Below are positions 6,720 to 13,400 of a stretch of 33,490 nt of DNA, piece by piece. The notes below the pieces were generated by a model that worked only from the letters and a program-made list of their open reading frames with translations, made no database searches and had not been told where the DNA came from. The stretch is from Dongia mobilis (lineage in GTDB: Bacteria; Pseudomonadota; Alphaproteobacteria; Dongiales; Dongiaceae), in contig NZ_CAMDRA010000022.1 of assembly GCF_945906275.1 (NCBI RefSeq), positions 1 to 33,490 of the forward strand. Direction: 5' to 3'. Every line of letters begins with the position of its first letter. Positions within the stretch are counted from its first letter, which is position 1. The position numbers and the translations under genes are program-made.

Positions 6720-7163
6720 ATGGACCCTTCCATGGAACAAGCGGCCGGTTCCTCTGTTCAACTCACGAAGCCGCCTGTTTGGCCGGTTTCGATCAAGGGG
6801 GTTCTCTTCGTCGCGCAGGAAGTCGTTCTGCTGCAGAACGAGCGCGAGGAGTGGGAGCTTCCCGGTGGCCGGCTCGAAGCCGGCGAAGAACCAGGTTCCT
6901 GTCTTGCCCGTGAGATCACGGAAGAGCTGGGAATAGACGTGACGGTTGCGGATCTTATCGATTGCTGGCGCTACCCGGTCCTGCCCAGCCGCGAGGTTCT
7001 GATCGTTACATATGGGGTGCGGCCGCTGCCTTCAGCGCAACTGCAGCTCAGTAACGAACACAAGGCGCTTGGGCGTTTCCCGATCGGCGCGATCGCGGAC
7101 CTCAGGATGCCGGAGGGCTATCGGCGCAGCATCCGCGATTGGGCGGCGCGCTGCGGTTTATAA
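6720..7163 (+). CDS. Nudix hydrolase encoded between atpD and atpC
   Basis: A 147-residue single-domain Nudix protein. The Nudix box is complete: GRLEAGEEPGSCLAREITEE followed by LGI fits Gx5Ex7REUxEExGU, with Mg-binding Glu residues in REITEE. The box is preceded by EEWELPGG, as in MutT-like NTP or nucleotide-sugar pyrophosphatases. It lacks the WQMPQGG segment of RNA pyrophosphohydrolase RppH, so it is a different branch. The gene starts 23 bases after atpD and ends 16 bases before atpC on the same strand, so it should share the operon transcript. ATG 6720 has only a weak GGGGCT upstream; ATG 6732 is an alternative. Substrate unknown; the location suggests, but does not prove, a link to nucleotide or energy status. 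Confidence 0.92.
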   Translation: MDPSMEQAAGSSVQLTKPPVWPVSIKGVLFVAQEVVLLQNEREEWELPGGRLEAGEEPGSCLAREITEELGIDVTVADLIDCWRYPVLPSREVLIVTYGVRPLPSAQLQLSNEHKALGRFPIGAIADLRMPEGYRRSIRDWAARCGL

Positions 7164-7676: not shown

Positions 7677-8492
7677 ATGGCGCATTGGACCCTCGACCAG
7701 ATTCCCTGGGATCAGTTCGACCCAAGCAAAATCGACCCCGAGCTGGTAAAGCTCGTGAAGGCCGCGGCCCTCGTGGAATATAACGGCGGCGACTACGCCA
7801 CTTATCTCAACAATGTGTTTCACGATGATGACGGCTTTCGCGCCGTTGCCAGTGCCTGGGCCTTGGAAGAGGTGCAGCATGGCGCAGCGCTTGCGCGCTG
7901 GGCCATGCTCGCCGACCCGGACTTCGATTTCGACGCCAGCTTCAAGCGTTTCACCAACGGCTACAGGATCACGCTCGACGTGAACGCCTCTGTGCGCGGC
8001 AGTCGCTCCGGCGAACTCGTCGCGCGCTGCATCGTCGAAACCGGAACCTCGTCATACTACACCGCCTTGGCCGAGTCCTGCGCCGAGCCAGTGCTGCACG
8101 CCATCTGTCGCAAGATCGCTGCTGACGAGCTCCGTCATTACAAGCTGTTCTACACGCATTTGCAGCACTATCTGGAGCAGGAAGGCCTGGGTGCCTTCGG
8201 CCGGGTCAAGGTGGCACTCTCGCGCATCACCGAATCCTAAGATGACGAGCTCGCCTATGCCTATTATGCCGCCAATCATGCGGCCGAGCCCTATGAGCGC
8301 AAGCGCTTCTCGATGGCCTATGCGCGGCGCGCCTATGCCTATTATCAACCGCCGCATATCCAGCGCGGGATCGCCATGGTGCTGAAGGCTGCCGGCCTCA
8401 ATCCCCAAGGTCCTTTGCACATGCCGCTCAGCAACCTCGCCCTGTGGTTCATGCGCCGCCGTGTGGCCAGGCTGAACGCGATCGGCGCCTAG
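7677..8492 (+). pseudogene. Ferritin-like diiron protein interrupted by an in-frame TAA
   Basis: The first 187 codons (7677-8240) encode an all-helical ferritin-like protein related to the acyl-ACP desaturase/ferritin superfamily. Candidate diiron ligands are E34, E64 or E65 with H68 (WALEEVQHG), E121, and E151 with H154 (ADELRHYKLF). The frame then meets TAA at 8238-8240 but continues in the same frame for 83 more sense codons to TAG at 8490-8492, beginning DDELAYAYYAANH and including helix-like protein sequence. This strongly suggests an original 271-residue protein hit by a nonsense change (for example from CAA, GAA or AAA), read-through, or a base error. All candidate metal ligands lie before the stop, so the short form may still fold. 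It follows atpC by 80 bases. Its substrate is unknown. Confidence 0.75.
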
Positions 8493-9151
8493 CCCGGCAC
8501 TCCTTCGGCGGCGAACCGCGTCGCCAGCATGCTGGCTCGCGCATTCATGTGCTCCCACCATCTGGCAAGACGCGGCTGCTCCTGCAACAGGGCAAGACCT
8601 TCGGCAGCCTGGCGGCCATAGGCGATCATCGGTGCCAGGTGAAGGTCGGCCAGTGACAGCGACTGACCCAACAACCAACTGTCGCCATCGCTAAGGTTTG
8701 CGAGTGCCGCCAATGCCAGCCGTGATCTGGCCATGGCTGCGTCCAACGCAGCCTGATCCAAGGGCGAATTGCCTTTCGCCGCCTCGTCGCGGGCCACATA
8801 AATGCCCCAGACCAGCGGCCGGTAGAGGTAATTGTCGGCGATGTTGATGATCTGGTTCATGCGAGCGCGTGCCCGCGCCTCCGCGGGTTGCAGGTTGCTG
8901 CCGGCGAAGGCCTCATCGATGTACCGTGTGATGGCATTGGTCTCGTAGAGCGTGAAATCGCCATGAACCAAGACCGGGATACGGCCAAAAGGATGCAGGC
9001 GCAAATAATCTGGCGGTGGCCCGCCGGGCGCGAAGATGTCGATGTCGCGTGACTCGTAGGGAACGCCTTTCTCGAGCAGCGTCAACCTGACGATGCGGAC
9101 ATAGACGCTGTAATGCGCGCCGTAGAGCCGTGGCTGCAACGTCTCAGTCAT
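8489..9151 (-). CDS. Glutathione S-transferase family protein
   Basis: A 220-residue GST. The N-terminal thioredoxin-like domain has LYGAHYSVYVRIVRLTLLEK (Ser or Tyr at the catalytic position) and FGRIPVLVHGDFTLYETNAI, with cis-Pro in IPVL and the glutathione-binding E-T/S pair. The C-terminal helical domain carries QSLSLADLHLAPM with the conserved Asp. ATG 9151 is chosen because the domain starts directly after MTETLQPR; it overlaps the end of the upstream DUF599 gene by 8 bases, indicating co-translation. At its 3' end the TAG overlaps the TAG of the convergent ferritin-like frame in the palindrome CTAG. Confidence 0.9.
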   Translation of the reverse strand: MTETLQPRLYGAHYSVYVRIVRLTLLEKGVPYESRDIDIFAPGGPPPDYLRLHPFGRIPVLVHGDFTLYETNAITRYIDEAFAGSNLQPAEARARARMNQIINIADNYLYRPLVWGIYVARDEAAKGNSPLDQAALDAAMARSRLALAALANLSDGDSWLLGQSLSLADLHLAPMIAYGRQAAEGLALLQEQPRLARWWEHMNARASMLATRFAAEGVPG

Positions 9152-9860
9152 TCGGGTCGCGCGCAGGCGAAGTTTCCGGTGGGTTGAGTTCGACATAGCG
9201 CTGGATGGCGCGCGAACTGTGCGAGGAGACCTGACGGCGCAGCAGGACCAGCATGACGCCAAGCGTGGCGACGATGAAGGCCATCGGGTCGATCAGCCAG
9301 GCAAGCCAGGCGAGGGCGAAATAGTAGCAGCGGATGCCGCCGCCGAAGCTGGTGAGCGCGCTGGTATAAACCCGCGCCATCTGGTCGGCCAGTTCCAGCC
9401 TGTGGGGGTAATCGTTCTTGGCGAGTGGCGCCGCGCCGATCAGAGTGCAGCAGTAATTGTATTGCCGCAGCGCCCAGGTGAAGCGAAAGAAGCCGTAGAC
9501 GAAGACGGCGATCAGCCCGATGATCTTCAGCTGAAACATGGTGGCGCTGCTATGGGCGACAAAGATCCAGCCGGCGATCACCTTCTGCGCCTCTTCCGCC
9601 TGGCCCAGGACGCCCAGCAGGCCGGCGACGACCAGGATCGTGGCGGAGCTGAAGAAGGACATCGAGTTGACCGTATGGCCGGTCAGCGCGGAATCGACGA
9701 TGCGATCAGGCCGCTCCATCATGCGTTGCATCCAGGCGCGCCGCACTTCATGCATCAGCGAATTCACATTCTTGCCACGGCCGGCGAGATCGGCGATGCG
9801 TGCATAGCCGAAGAAAGCGACGGCAAACAGACCAAGGCCGATGAGGTCCACAATCGTCAT
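9144..9860 (-). CDS. DUF599 family membrane protein, copy A
   Basis: A 238-residue polytopic inner-membrane protein of the DUF599 family, function unknown. Hydrophobic segments lie near residues 3-20, 70-90, 105-130 and 185-215. Family-like conserved blocks are RPDRIVDSALTGHTVNS, FTWALRQYNYCCTLIGAAP and SFGGGIRCYYFALAWLAW. It is clearly paralogous to the gene immediately upstream (copy B), sharing these blocks in order. The gap to copy B is 33 bases and the 3' end overlaps the GST start, so PilZ-DUF599-DUF599-GST looks like one operon. Confidence 0.85.
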   Translation of the reverse strand: MTIVDLIGLGLFAVAFFGYARIADLAGRGKNVNSLMHEVRRAWMQRMMERPDRIVDSALTGHTVNSMSFFSSATILVVAGLLGVLGQAEEAQKVIAGWIFVAHSSATMFQLKIIGLIAVFVYGFFRFTWALRQYNYCCTLIGAAPLAKNDYPHRLELADQMARVYTSALTSFGGGIRCYYFALAWLAWLIDPMAFIVATLGVMLVLLRRQVSSHSSRAIQRYVELNPPETSPARDPND

Positions 9861-9893
9861 GCGGTCGTCTCAGGATCCCGACATGCCATGGGC

Positions 9894-10613
9894 TCACCCT
9901 CCCGTCGCATCATAATACTCGGCAACGCTCGCCTGGCTGCGGCTGTTCACCTGGCGCTTCAACCAGACGAGGACAACGATGCCGTTGGCGACGACGAAAG
10001 CCAGCGGATGAATGAACCAGCACAACCAGGCCATGGCGAAATAGTAGGAGCGGATGCCGCCATTGAAGCTCACGACCGCCAGTGACATGACCCGTGCTGC
10101 CTGATCGGCGAACCTGTCGCGGGCCATCGACTCAACCGGCGGCAGGGGTGCTGCCCCGATCAAGGTGCAGGCGAAGTTGAACTGCCGCAACGCCCAGGTG
10201 AATTTATAGAAGCCCACCATGAACAGGCCGATGAGGCCGAGGATCTTCAGCTCGAACAGCAACTCGGACGATATCACGGCAAATCCGAAAGACTGGATGA
10301 CGGCGTGGGCGTCGGCCGCCTTGCCAAGGACGCTCAACAGGCCGGCGATGATCAACATCGAGGTTGAGGCAAAGAAGGTGGTCGAGTTGACCTGATGGCC
10401 GGTCAACGAGGAATCCAGAATGCGCTCCGGCCGGTCGAGCATGCGCCGCATCCAGAGGCGGCGCAGCTGATGCATCATCTGATTGAGATTTTTCGGCGCC
10501 ACGTCATCGGCGGGCAGCTTGTCGGCAAATCGGCCATAGACGAACCACAGCATCAGCATCCAGCCGAAGGCCAGAGAATCCGGCCAATTCCACTGCGACC
10601 AAATGATTGCCAT
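9894..10613 (-). CDS. DUF599 family membrane protein, copy B
   Basis: A 239-residue polytopic membrane protein, tandem paralogue of copy A. Matching blocks are RPERILDSSLTGHQVNS, FTWALRQFNFACTLIGAAP and SFNGGIRSYYFAMAWLCWF. The N-terminal region before the first block differs (MAIIWSQWNWPDSLAFGW here), so the pair has diverged mainly at the N-terminus and in the loops. It starts 17 bases after the stop of the first PilZ gene. No catalytic motif is visible. The conserved soluble stretch RxxWMxRMxxRPxRIxDSxLTGHxVNS between membrane segments may be the working part. Confidence 0.85.
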   Translation of the reverse strand: MAIIWSQWNWPDSLAFGWMLMLWFVYGRFADKLPADDVAPKNLNQMMHQLRRLWMRRMLDRPERILDSSLTGHQVNSTTFFASTSMLIIAGLLSVLGKAADAHAVIQSFGFAVISSELLFELKILGLIGLFMVGFYKFTWALRQFNFACTLIGAAPLPPVESMARDRFADQAARVMSLAVVSFNGGIRSYYFAMAWLCWFIHPLAFVVANGIVVLVWLKRQVNSRSQASVAEYYDATGG

Positions 10614-10630
10614 GATGCCGACCGATCGCG

Positions 10631-11002
10631 TTAGGCCGGTGAGCGTTCCCGGCCGTGGAAGCGCTTGTTGAACCCGCGCTCGAAGAAATCGTAGATGGAG
10701 GGTCTGAGTTCGTCGTACTTGACCGCAAGGCGCCTGTTTTCGCGATCGTTCCGCACCACCTTGGCCTGGATCTTCATGGCAAATTCGGCGTGCTCGTCCT
10801 TGATCTTGATATCGATCACGACCGGCATCTCGACCAGCAATTGGCCATCATAATTCTCGATAAGAAGCCAGCCCAGGGACCAGTTGAGCGTATCGCAGAC
10901 CTGCCCGCCCACCTTGACCGTGAAGATCGGCAACGGCATGCGCTTGTCGCGCCGGTGTTCCGGACCCCGGGCCTTGCTGAAACCCATGGTGAAGCTGGTC
11001 AT
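10631..11002 (-). CDS. PilZ-like domain protein, copy 1 (degenerate motif)
   Basis: A 123-residue protein with a PilZ-like beta-barrel. The cyclic-di-GMP-binding loop RxxxR is present as RRDKR (R17-R21). The second motif, normally [D/N]xSxxG, is NWSLGW at residues 40-45, so the last Gly is replaced by Trp. Cyclic-di-GMP binding may therefore be weakened or lost. The start is taken at ATG 11002, which has GGAGAG five bases upstream and aligns with the start of the second PilZ gene; a GTG two codons earlier is less likely. First gene of the likely operon with the two DUF599 genes and a GST. Confidence 0.72.
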   Translation of the reverse strand: MTSFTMGFSKARGPEHRRDKRMPLPIFTVKVGGQVCDTLNWSLGWLLIENYDGQLLVEMPVVIDIKIKDEHAEFAMKIQAKVVRNDRENRRLAVKYDELRPSIYDFFERGFNKRFHGRERSPA

Positions 11003-11132
11003 CCACACTCTCCCGACATGTATGCTCGCAAGTGTAACAGATGGCAGGATTCCTGTACCAGCCGATTGGGACCATATCCCGGCTGGCCAAAGCCGGCGAT
11101 GGTCCTTGGGCTCCGCCCAGCCGATCCCTCGG

Positions 11133-11504
11133 TCAGCGAACCCGATTGCGATGGGCGAGATAGCTGCGCTCGAGAAAACGGATGGCGGCCGGAGTGAGCT
11201 TGACGAATTTCAGGGCCAGGAGTCGCTTCTGGCGGTCATTCCGCACCACTCTTGCCTCGACCGACACCACGCTCTGCACCCGCTGGTCCCGGGTGTCGCC
11301 TTTCACTTTGATATGGACCAGCACCAGCATGTTGCTGAAGAAGCGCCCATCATAATTGCGCAGCAGAAGGCCACCCAGGGACCAGTTCTCGGTGTCGTAG
11401 CGATAGTCGTCGATCTCTACCGAGAGAGTTGGCTCGAAGAAGCGCTTGTCGCGGCGCATCTCGACTTTGCCGACCTTCCGGAATCCCAAGGTGAAGGAGA
11501 TCAT
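11133..11504 (-). CDS. PilZ domain protein, copy 2
   Basis: A 123-residue PilZ-domain protein, the same length as copy 1 and aligned with it from the first residue (MISFTLGFRKVGKVE against MTSFTMGFSKARGPE). Both cyclic-di-GMP motifs look complete: RRDKR (R17-R21) and NWSLGG (N40, S42, G45). The downstream strand VVSVEARVVRNDRQKRLLAL matches the copy-1 stretch IQAKVVRNDRENRRLAV. The start at ATG 11504 fits this alignment although a longer frame exists; its ribosome-binding site is weak (AAGGCT). A 130-base gap separates it from copy 1. Likely a cytoplasmic c-di-GMP receptor; its target is unknown. Confidence 0.75.
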   Translation of the reverse strand: MISFTLGFRKVGKVEMRRDKRFFEPTLSVEIDDYRYDTENWSLGGLLLRNYDGRFFSNMLVLVHIKVKGDTRDQRVQSVVSVEARVVRNDRQKRLLALKFVKLTPAAIRFLERSYLAHRNRVR

Positions 11505-11615
11505 TCGTAGAGCCTTGAAAATAATAAGTAATTTGAAGATGCTGCAGGTTGATCTAGCGGCGCCCCCAGGAACAGCTGAGTGCATAATGGCAAAAAAAGA
11601 GTTAAGCGCTGCTTA

Positions 11616-13382
11616 CTAGAAATTGCTGTTGAGCGTGGCGCCCTCGGTGGCCGTGACAGCGCTGGTCGGCCAGATTGCGACCCAGCGGTCGCGGGCAACC
11701 CCCCGGTAATAGGGCAGCGCCGGCAGGCGCAGCGGGCTGCCGTCGAAATAGCTGACGATGACTCCGGCCGGATTGTCCTTCGCCCATGCCAGGGCGGCCT
11801 GCCGGTTCGGCAGCGATATCGGTGCTTCCGAGAGGCGGCCATAAAAATCGAACTCGCCGCGATAAGGTCCATAGACGGCGAGCGGCTGCCCAGCCTCCTC
11901 CAACTGCCGCAGGCGCTGGGCCACCGGTTCAAGATCGAAGAACTGGCGCAGATTGAACGGGAACTCGATGTTGATGCAGGTCATCAGCAAGACTGGCAGG
12001 GTCGCGACCTGGATGGTCCGCGAGAGCAGATGGGTCGGTGACAGCTGGGCGATGCCATAGCCGGCAACCAGCAGCACGAGGCCCGAGGTCATGCCGATGC
12101 CACCGATCCAGATCGGCAGCGGGACGTCGAACAATTGCCGCCAAAGCGCATCAAGATGTGCCGTCGGCACGATGTTCATCAGGAAGAAGAACAGTCCAAG
12201 CAGCAGCGCCAGGAGGGACGGCACGATGGCATGGAAATCCTTGGCGCGGATCTCCTGCGTTGCCAGCAGGCGTGCGCCCAGCAGCGACAGCGGCAGGATG
12301 ATGTAGATCAGCCCCTGCATCTGCCATCCGCTGGCGATGCCGCTGATCATGGTCGTCGCCAGAAACAGCAGGCAAAGGCGAAAGCTGCGACCGACACGGC
12401 CACGCCATTGCTTGGCCATCGCGCGCCACAGGGTCTTCCAGCAGATCCAGGGATAGAGCAGGACCGGCGCCAGGAACAGCGACCACATTTCGCGCCGGCT
12501 AGCTTCCGTGGCGGGGTGGAGCCAACCATTGCCAAAGCCGATGAAGCTCGCCGCATTGCCGGTCTGGCGCAGATACTGAATCCAGGCGACCCAGGCTATG
12601 GCCGCGGGAAGCAGGCTGATGAGCAAGGCAAGATGCCATGCCGGGGCGAATTTAAGTATCACCCGCGCCGAGCCAGCGACGGGTTGCACCGCTGCCTGGC
12701 GTTGACCCAACATGTTCTGGCGTGGCGCCAGGGCGGCAATCAGCGGCAGGACGAGCCACGCAATGTTGCCGATCGCAAACAATATCAGCAGGACCGTGCC
12801 GCCGAAAACAGACCACCACAGCATGGCCGAGCCGGTGGAAATGTTGCTGTGCCAAAGCTTGGTCAACGCGTGAAAGCCAAGCGCCGTGAACAACAGGCCC
12901 AGCGGTTCCGCCTGAACCATGGTGGCGATCAGCGCGAATGCCATGACGCCGGCCAGCAGAATGCGCGCATAGAGCTCGGTCATCTGCCGGTGGGGCCAGA
13001 GGGAGAGAGCGCTGAGGCCGATCAGGACGAGGGTCGCCAGGCTGCACAGCACACTGAGGATTCGCGGCCATCCATCACCGATGCCGAAGACGTGCCACCC
13101 GGCGAGGATTGTCCAAAGCTGAAGGGGCGGCTGGTCGCCATTACCAATGCCGCTGCGCAATGGGATCCAGACGCCGTCTTGCCACATATGCCAGGCGGAG
13201 GCGAGCATCTCCAACTCGTAGGGTGCCGTCGGTGGCCGACCGAGCAAAGCGCCCACGACGATGATCAACCACAGCAGGAACGGCGCCACATATCCCCAGC
13301 GAAGAAAGCCGATGCCCGGTGGCGCGACCTCGTCCGGGCGGTTCAGCGGCGTATCGCCTTCCGGGTTCGTATTGCTGTTCAT
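11616..13382 (-). CDS. ArnT/PMT-like (GT39/GT83-type) polytopic membrane protein
   Basis: A 588-residue protein with about a dozen hydrophobic helices. The first periplasmic loop has the layout of lipid-linked sugar transferases of the ArnT/PMT type: acidic residues in PYELEMLASAWHMW (E56, E58), then GIGNGDQPPLQLW, where D83 and the PPLxxW segment match the family pattern. Canonical enzymes carry a DE or DD at the first position; here it is EL-E, so the assignment is to the fold rather than to a known activity. A C-terminal soluble part (about 490-588) follows. It probably uses a polyprenyl-linked sugar on the periplasmic side. ATG 13382 is preferred; GTG 13400, directly abutting the GST stop, is the alternative. 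Confidence 0.75.
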   Translation of the reverse strand: MNSNTNPEGDTPLNRPDEVAPPGIGFLRWGYVAPFLLWLIIVVGALLGRPPTAPYELEMLASAWHMWQDGVWIPLRSGIGNGDQPPLQLWTILAGWHVFGIGDGWPRILSVLCSLATLVLIGLSALSLWPHRQMTELYARILLAGVMAFALIATMVQAEPLGLLFTALGFHALTKLWHSNISTGSAMLWWSVFGGTVLLILFAIGNIAWLVLPLIAALAPRQNMLGQRQAAVQPVAGSARVILKFAPAWHLALLISLLPAAIAWVAWIQYLRQTGNAASFIGFGNGWLHPATEASRREMWSLFLAPVLLYPWICWKTLWRAMAKQWRGRVGRSFRLCLLFLATTMISGIASGWQMQGLIYIILPLSLLGARLLATQEIRAKDFHAIVPSLLALLLGLFFFLMNIVPTAHLDALWRQLFDVPLPIWIGGIGMTSGLVLLVAGYGIAQLSPTHLLSRTIQVATLPVLLMTCINIEFPFNLRQFFDLEPVAQRLRQLEEAGQPLAVYGPYRGEFDFYGRLSEAPISLPNRQAALAWAKDNPAGVIVSYFDGSPLRLPALPYYRGVARDRWVAIWPTSAVTATEGATLNSNF

Positions 13383-13400
13383 GGGCTGGGCGCCGGTCAC

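Follow-up and report, generated by a model that had tools for sequence, protein, structure and literature searches.

A PilZ–DUF599 gene neighbourhood conserved in the Dongiaceae and its possible link to cyclic di-GMP signalling

Introduction

The PilZ domain of Alg44 forms part of a larger membrane protein involved in alginate secretion, and it is common for single-domain PilZ proteins to act in trans. Here we consider a locus of Dongia mobilis in which genes for two single-domain PilZ proteins (PilZ1 and PilZ2) precede genes for two DUF599 membrane proteins (DUF599-A and DUF599-B); Dongia and its relatives are soil and water bacteria. The locus lies in a stretch of 33,490 nucleotides (nt), contig NZ_CAMDRA010000022.1 of assembly GCF_945906275.1, referred to as the window. 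The PilZ–DUF599 gene arrangement is real, is conserved in one bacterial family, the Dongiaceae, and is plausibly an operon. The reading we favour, tentatively and at somewhat less than an even chance, is that of a family-specific operon, with one to three PilZ genes, DUF599-A, DUF599-B and in some cases a GST gene, in which a PilZ adaptor would tune the DUF599 membrane protein.

According to extracts of two papers (PMC7288161, PMC3131395), PilZ proteins bind cyclic di-GMP (c-di-GMP) via an RxxxR and a [D/N]xSxxG motif, with the ligand contacted by Asp, Ser and Gly of the latter. For XCC6012, in which the motifs are incomplete, the extract of PMC3131395 describes binding as not reliably shown and a partner as perhaps required, as in the FimX–PilZ complex.

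DUF599 is widespread in bacteria and, in an extract of PMC13349389, is reported in plants too. In the passages of the open literature consulted, no function is assigned to DUF599, and in one source (PMC5550703) it appears in co-expression tables only; two further candidate sources (PMC13118837, PMC12542790) were discarded, their relevant passages concerning other DUF numbers. No paper joining DUF599 and PilZ was found in the open literature, subscription journals being mostly outside the search. A clue to function comes from the DUF599 gene edgA of Methylobacterium, as presented in extracts of PMC4271186: edgA mutations arose repeatedly in dichloromethane-adapted lines, the rebuilt mutations were beneficial, and a clcA/edgA double mutant had lower fitness than clcA alone, from which the authors conclude that EdgA probably takes part in chloride export. 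These results are compatible with an anion-related membrane function of DUF599 but do not prove it, the chloride link coming from this one paper.

Conservation of the locus in the Dongiaceae

The genome (G000 in our numbering) comprises 3.72 Mb in 271 contigs, the window being contig 22. Six genes follow one another on its minus strand in the order glycosyltransferase, PilZ2, PilZ1, DUF599-A, DUF599-B and GST (Table 1), with gaps, calculated from the coordinates, of 111, 130, 17, 33 and −8 nt. The initial annotation had placed the last five of these genes together at 8489–11504 and had noted an 8-base overlap between the GST and a DUF599 gene; both observations hold, the GST start falling within DUF599-B so that bases 9144–9151 are common to the two. 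The gaps suggest that PilZ1, DUF599-A, DUF599-B and the GST are transcribed as a single unit. A scan of positions 8400–11800 for sigma-70-like promoters was uninformative (no site, 0.9 expected), and the same region holds five terminator-like sites against 2.4 expected, all on the minus strand and within genes.

The search for this arrangement covered 60 relatives and the window's genome, 17 of the 61 genomes belonging to the Dongiaceae. DUF599 was found in 13 of these 17, and a close PilZ in the same 13; a fourteenth genome, G011, has a weak PilZ match only (1.4e-4), away from the locus. In all 12 Dongiaceae genomes with DUF599 at the locus (window included), a PilZ gene lies directly upstream of it on the same strand. 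Measured to the first candidate start, the gap between them is 9–53 nt in 10 of the 11 other loci, compared with 17 nt in the window; in the eleventh, G001, the first candidate DUF599 start lies 62 nt inside PilZ and the following one leaves a gap of 43 nt. The adjacency seen in this genome thus recurs in other genomes of the family, with operon-like spacing.

The other members of the cluster are less constant. GST1 was matched in seven and GST2, a second GST gene, in eight of the 12 loci (window included), and where a single DUF599 paralogue survives (A in G004; B in G009, G012, G013, G015 and G016) it keeps its PilZ. The locus of G002 and of G005 is divided over two contigs, the break lying between DUF599-A and DUF599-B, with PilZ beside A and the GST beside B. 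A tie between PilZ and DUF599 is favoured because the GSTs come and go while these two stay together at the locus.

Table 1. Features of the locus in the window, and PilZ-containing genes beside DUF599 outside the family (window positions unless a locus is named)
Feature	Position	Strand	Evidence
PilZ2, single-domain PilZ protein, 123 aa (P0002)	11133..11504	-	Pfam PilZ 4e-4, 21.0 bits, under the 22.5 cut-off; 43% identity to PilZ1
PilZ2 RxxxR motif (RRDKR)	11442..11456	-	Translation; R17 and R21 invariant in 31/31 aligned PilZ
PilZ2 [D/N]xSxxG motif NWSLGG, intact	11370..11387	-	Translation and alignment
PilZ1, single-domain PilZ protein, 123 aa (P0001), 17 nt upstream of DUF599-A	10631..11002	-	Sub-threshold Pfam, 12.8 bits; fold match to Alg44 PilZ–c-di-GMP complex, Foldseek E 4e-6
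PilZ1 RxxxR motif (RRDKR)	10940..10954	-	Translation
PilZ1 second motif NWSLGW, Trp at the motif's last Gly	10868..10885	-	Translation; Gly in the other 30/31 aligned PilZ
DUF599-A, membrane protein, 239 aa (P0003)	9894..10613	-	PF04654 1.7e-56; model pLDDT 95.7
DUF599-B, membrane protein, 238 aa (P0004), 33 nt after DUF599-A	9144..9860	-	PF04654 2.8e-55
GST-family protein, 220 aa (P0005)	8489..9151	-	GST_N_3 4.6e-18; matched in 7/12 family loci, window included
Divergent PMT/ArnT-like membrane glycosyltransferase, 111 nt upstream of PilZ2	11616..13400	-	No Pfam match; 3/5 homologues tested pass the PMT or PMT_2 cut-off
Pentapeptide-repeat gene with C-terminal PilZ (G182/G271 loci)	L118 4624-6156	same as DUF599	Profile search
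Pentapeptide-repeat gene with C-terminal PilZ (G182/G271 loci)	L119 4508-6040	same as DUF599	Profile search

Elsewhere in the window, a NUDIX hydrolase gene (6720–7163; Pfam NUDIX 1.7e-14) lies between atpD and atpC of the ATP synthase operon, the atp names having been given by synteny and by eye. It was matched at the same place in eight other family loci and was unmatched in G004, G006 and G012.

The PilZ proteins

Neither PilZ1 nor PilZ2 reaches the cut-off of the Pfam profile PF07238 (scores in Table 1). Of three other family copies, those of G001 (25.5 bits) and G008 (30.2 bits) pass and the second copy of G006 (20.6 bits) fails; since two of the three pass, the low scores in the window look like divergence within the family. 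The assignment to PilZ is accepted because PilZ1, modelled at a pLDDT of 80.9 with ends of low confidence, is predicted to have a fold that matches solved PilZ domains: a fold search of the PDB gave 17 matches at E ≤ 0.001, placing the model in the PilZ beta-barrel fold, and we take all 17 to be PilZ proteins or complexes (Alg44, MotI, BcsA, MapZ).

As the initial annotation supposed, each pair consists of paralogues: the two PilZ proteins share 43% identity (E 1e-32), and DUF599-A and DUF599-B 52% (E 1.8e-71). It had also drawn attention to the identical length of the PilZ proteins, and both do come to 123 residues when started at the homologous Met, the mechanical open reading frames being 125 and 150 residues long. 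The equal length appears nevertheless to be incidental, because the alignment of the two has a four-residue gap, their C-termini are unlike and the other family copies are 116–140 residues long.

Both proteins retain RxxxR, as do all 17 family copies. NWSLGG, the family's form of the second motif, is present in 16 of the 17, PilZ1 of this genome being the sole exception with NWSLGW; PilZ2 thus carries a complete [D/N]xSxxG motif and PilZ1, with Trp in place of the last Gly, does not. The wider alignment of 31 PilZ domains gives the same picture (Table 1). Compared with its G003 orthologue, PilZ1 shows 94% identity and, by a simple Nei–Gojobori count, a ratio of non-synonymous to synonymous substitution rates (dN/dS) of 0.06; the same count gives 0.25 for PilZ2 and its G003 counterpart. 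This identity and low ratio indicate strong purifying selection on PilZ1: as far as such comparisons go, the gene is constrained, not decaying, and has recently changed at a ligand residue.

With 12 GGDEF matches in the genome, c-di-GMP signalling is likely present in this organism. Two further PilZ domains occur elsewhere in it (G000:C195:4948-5580), in opposite orientation and about 165 nt apart.

The DUF599 proteins

DUF599-A and DUF599-B, the only DUF599 matches in the genome, score 191.4 and 187.4 bits against PF04654 (cut-off 27) and cover positions 2–210 and 3–210 of its 211. An alignment of 100 DUF599 members has four hydrophobic stretches, with R51, W54, R61, D67, K123, R143, R188, W199 and R220 invariant or nearly so, the basic residues among them being R51, R61, K123, R143, R188 and R220. 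DUF599-A was modelled with confidence (pLDDT 95.7, pTM 0.90) as a helical membrane protein. A fold search with the DUF599 model in the PDB and in viral libraries gave no match at E ≤ 0.001, and a sequence search of the PDB gave one match only, at chance level; the match to the channel Orai (6bbi; Z 8.7, root-mean-square deviation 3.9, 133 aligned residues) is level with unrelated helical bundles.

The domain was found in 73 of 386 genomes of the class and in 141 of the 397 Pseudomonadota genomes drawn. G276 contains a tandem DUF599 pair (L137 6112-7500), one member of which is extremely divergent and forms a long branch in the tree, and G118 contains two adjacent weak DUF599 matches. No PilZ–DUF599 fusion protein was noticed among the fetched loci; an apparent fusion in G344, a 557-residue frame with DUF599, was read by eye as an out-of-frame extension over the upstream gene and was rejected.

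PilZ near DUF599 outside the family

Considering whether PilZ accompanies DUF599 in general, the sample comprised 100 stretches (20 + 40 + 40, the first 20 including 15 of the family, one of them a PilZ place without DUF599), to which were added the loci from the genome searches, mostly with flanks of 1.5 kb, and the best 80 of 160 database loci. It yielded 196 distinct DUF599 domains (188 clusters at 98% identity), of which 171 lie outside the family and 162 of those have at least 1 kb on both sides. A first PilZ profile missed all seven general control PilZ loci (L003–L007, L096, L097), and for this reason the profiles were rebuilt from 20 further PilZ domains; the rebuilt profiles recover 7/7 and 6/7 held-out controls below 0.01, the controls amounting to six separate places as L003 and L007 overlap. 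The family type of PilZ goes undetected by the rebuilt general profile (PilZ2 at 1.5) but is covered by the merged one, and very divergent PilZ domains may escape these profiles.

PilZ was found near DUF599 in two of the 171 cases, G182 and G271, which belong to one genus. The partner there is a 510-residue pentapeptide-repeat protein with a C-terminal PilZ domain, encoded directly upstream on the same strand (Table 1); the open literature, judged by titles, gave no paper on such a protein. As a rough estimate, about 0.2 such neighbours would be expected by chance among the 171, the 65 non-family genomes with DUF599 holding 182 PilZ matches at an assumed 4,500 genes per genome. In view of this expectation the pairing, which could have arisen by chance, is weak evidence for a general link.

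The family PilZ profile (E ≤ 1e-6) matches in 53 of the 386 class genomes, five of them Dongiaceae, and when the listed places were compared by eye, only the PilZ matches of the family, G182 and G271 adjoined DUF599. A census of neighbours in 60 fetched stretches (15 of the family) gave no steady DUF599 partner: the largest clusters were apparently antisense or shifted frames of DUF599 itself, and a chemoreceptor-like cluster was present in seven loci and a fumarase-like one in four (names given by eye). The sample examined accordingly gives no sign of a general PilZ–DUF599 system.

History of the duplications

When 65 DUF599 domains were placed in a tree, the A copies of seven genus members formed one clade (support 100/98), and the B copies of six genus members together with those of G012, G009, G013, G015 and G016 formed another (support 99/96). 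Because both clades are well supported, the DUF599 duplication is most simply placed before the Dongiaceae genera, followed, again most simply, by loss of DUF599-A in groups g4 and g7 and of DUF599-B in G004. The number of PilZ copies among the locus genomes is one in nine of them, two in G000 and G006, and three in G003; the PilZ tree is weak, with long branches, and too poor to date these copies.

A joint duplication of PilZ and DUF599, as the repeated pairing had first suggested, is rejected on the gene order (PilZ–PilZ–DUF599–DUF599), the old A/B split, the independent PilZ copy number and the split loci. The two pairs are accordingly not copies of one PilZ+DUF599 unit, since the A/B split predates the genera while PilZ number varies independently of it.

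Weighing the explanations

The neighbourhood makes a functional PilZ–DUF599 link plausible, and of the interpretation originally offered for this locus, the family adjacency, the operon-like spacing and the presence of both motifs in PilZ2 have stood and joint duplication has not; the sample outside the family speaks against generality. Several observations weigh against an operon in which PilZ tunes DUF599. The pairing is scarce outside the family, and the predicted DUF599 structure lacks a clear match among solved folds. The PilZ copy nearest to DUF599, PilZ1, is the one that has lost a motif residue. In G008, PilZ stands beside the glycosyltransferase without DUF599, which is on a different contig. 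Finally, most of the family loci are syntenic between the M17 peptidase gene and atpD.

This last point introduces the strongest rival, namely that PilZ and DUF599 are adjacent as co-inherited members of a Dongiaceae block, sharing a transcript at most and having no direct functional tie. The block M17–GST2–glycosyltransferase–PilZ–DUF599–GST1–ferritin-like–atp is largely conserved in the family, and the adjacency may therefore reflect shared ancestry, the family loci not being independent observations. The chance-level pairing in other families of the sample and the lack of a steady DUF599 partner in the census point the same way. Against this, GST1 and GST2 are unmatched in several genomes and the DUF599 paralogues have been lost singly, yet PilZ and DUF599 remain together in all 12 loci, and their short gaps fit one transcript. 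Co-inheritance is a serious contender, in our view only slightly less probable than the favoured reading.

That PilZ1 and PilZ2 are stand-alone effectors like DgrA or MapZ, with targets elsewhere (the flagellum or pili, for instance) and an incidental gene position, is in keeping with the MapZ–CheR1 complexes (5y4r, 5xly) among the fold matches of PilZ1; it is made unlikely by the four family genomes without DUF599, all of which also lack this PilZ apart from the weak match elsewhere in G011.

About as improbable is the idea that PilZ serves the upstream PMT/ArnT-like glycosyltransferase, in the manner of BcsA (cellulose synthase) and Alg44 (alginate), with DUF599 a bystander: the glycosyltransferase is upstream of PilZ in all 13 family genomes with this PilZ, including G008, and the PilZ domain of Alg44 is the best structural relative of PilZ1, but its distance from PilZ is larger and variable (58–189 nt in the 12 genomes with DUF599 at the locus, 527 nt in G008), G007, G010, G011 and G014 keep the glycosyltransferase with neither PilZ nor DUF599 in the stretch fetched around it (for G011 only about 1.1 kb on the downstream side), 16 more distant homologues (L102–L117) have no family-type PilZ within 1.5 kb, as judged by a profile that misses general PilZ, and the PMT signature (DETR / KPPLLFW) is altered in 11 aligned Dongiaceae copies. 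Of five homologues of this glycosyltransferase tested, three pass the PMT or PMT_2 cut-off. The gene also adjoins an M17 aminopeptidase gene in two more distant genomes (L102, L103).

A possible mechanism

Under the favoured reading of a PilZ adaptor tuning DUF599, the PilZ protein would work as a small adaptor in the cytosol: with c-di-GMP bound at its RxxxR and NxSxxG motifs, it would dock on the cytosolic face of DUF599 and alter the activity of the membrane protein. DUF599 itself would most likely move or gate a small anion, chloride being suggested by the EdgA work, and the operon would tie anion or osmotic balance at the membrane to the amount of c-di-GMP. Of the two copies in this genome, PilZ2 would be the one that responds to the nucleotide, while PilZ1, with Trp at the motif glycine, may have little or no affinity for c-di-GMP and serve as a constitutive or structural partner.

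A bolder and improbable version is c-di-GMP-gated anion permeation, in which DUF599 would represent a kind of anion channel or exporter not described before, a dedicated PilZ subunit would be its gate and PilZ1 a nucleotide-independent partner, linking biofilm and motility signalling to chloride and osmotic balance. The Dongiaceae offer a lineage in which DUF599 is paired with a putative messenger-sensing partner, with c-di-GMP as candidate input and chloride as candidate output; if this is true, c-di-GMP would control membrane ion balance via a PilZ adaptor.

Comparison with known systems

Two described proteins share the DUF599 domain. The plant protein At4g31330 has, according to its authors in the extract of PMC13349389, the same domain and is a predicted plasma-membrane protein; it differs in being eukaryotic and in responding to sulfate starvation, and the extract makes no mention of PilZ. 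EdgA of Methylobacterium has the same PF04654 domain and was found by dichloromethane selection (PMC4271186).

The G182 and G271 loci (L118, L119) resemble the Dongiaceae arrangement in that a PilZ domain with RxxxR and NWSFGG is encoded directly upstream of DUF599 on the same strand. They differ in that the PilZ domain is part of the 510-residue fused protein, the DUF599 is on a branch apart from the Dongiaceae copies and the arrangement is confined to one genus.

For the PilZ proteins, the closest known relative is the PilZ domain of Alg44 from Pseudomonas aeruginosa (PDB 4rt0, 4xrn), which is both the best sequence match (E 0.004 with a profile of 22 PilZ domains) and the best fold match of PilZ1 (Foldseek E 4e-6, TM 0.66). 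The likeness lies in a c-di-GMP-bound PilZ tied to a membrane process; unlike in Alg44, PilZ in the window is a separate protein of 123 residues, with DUF599 as its putative partner.

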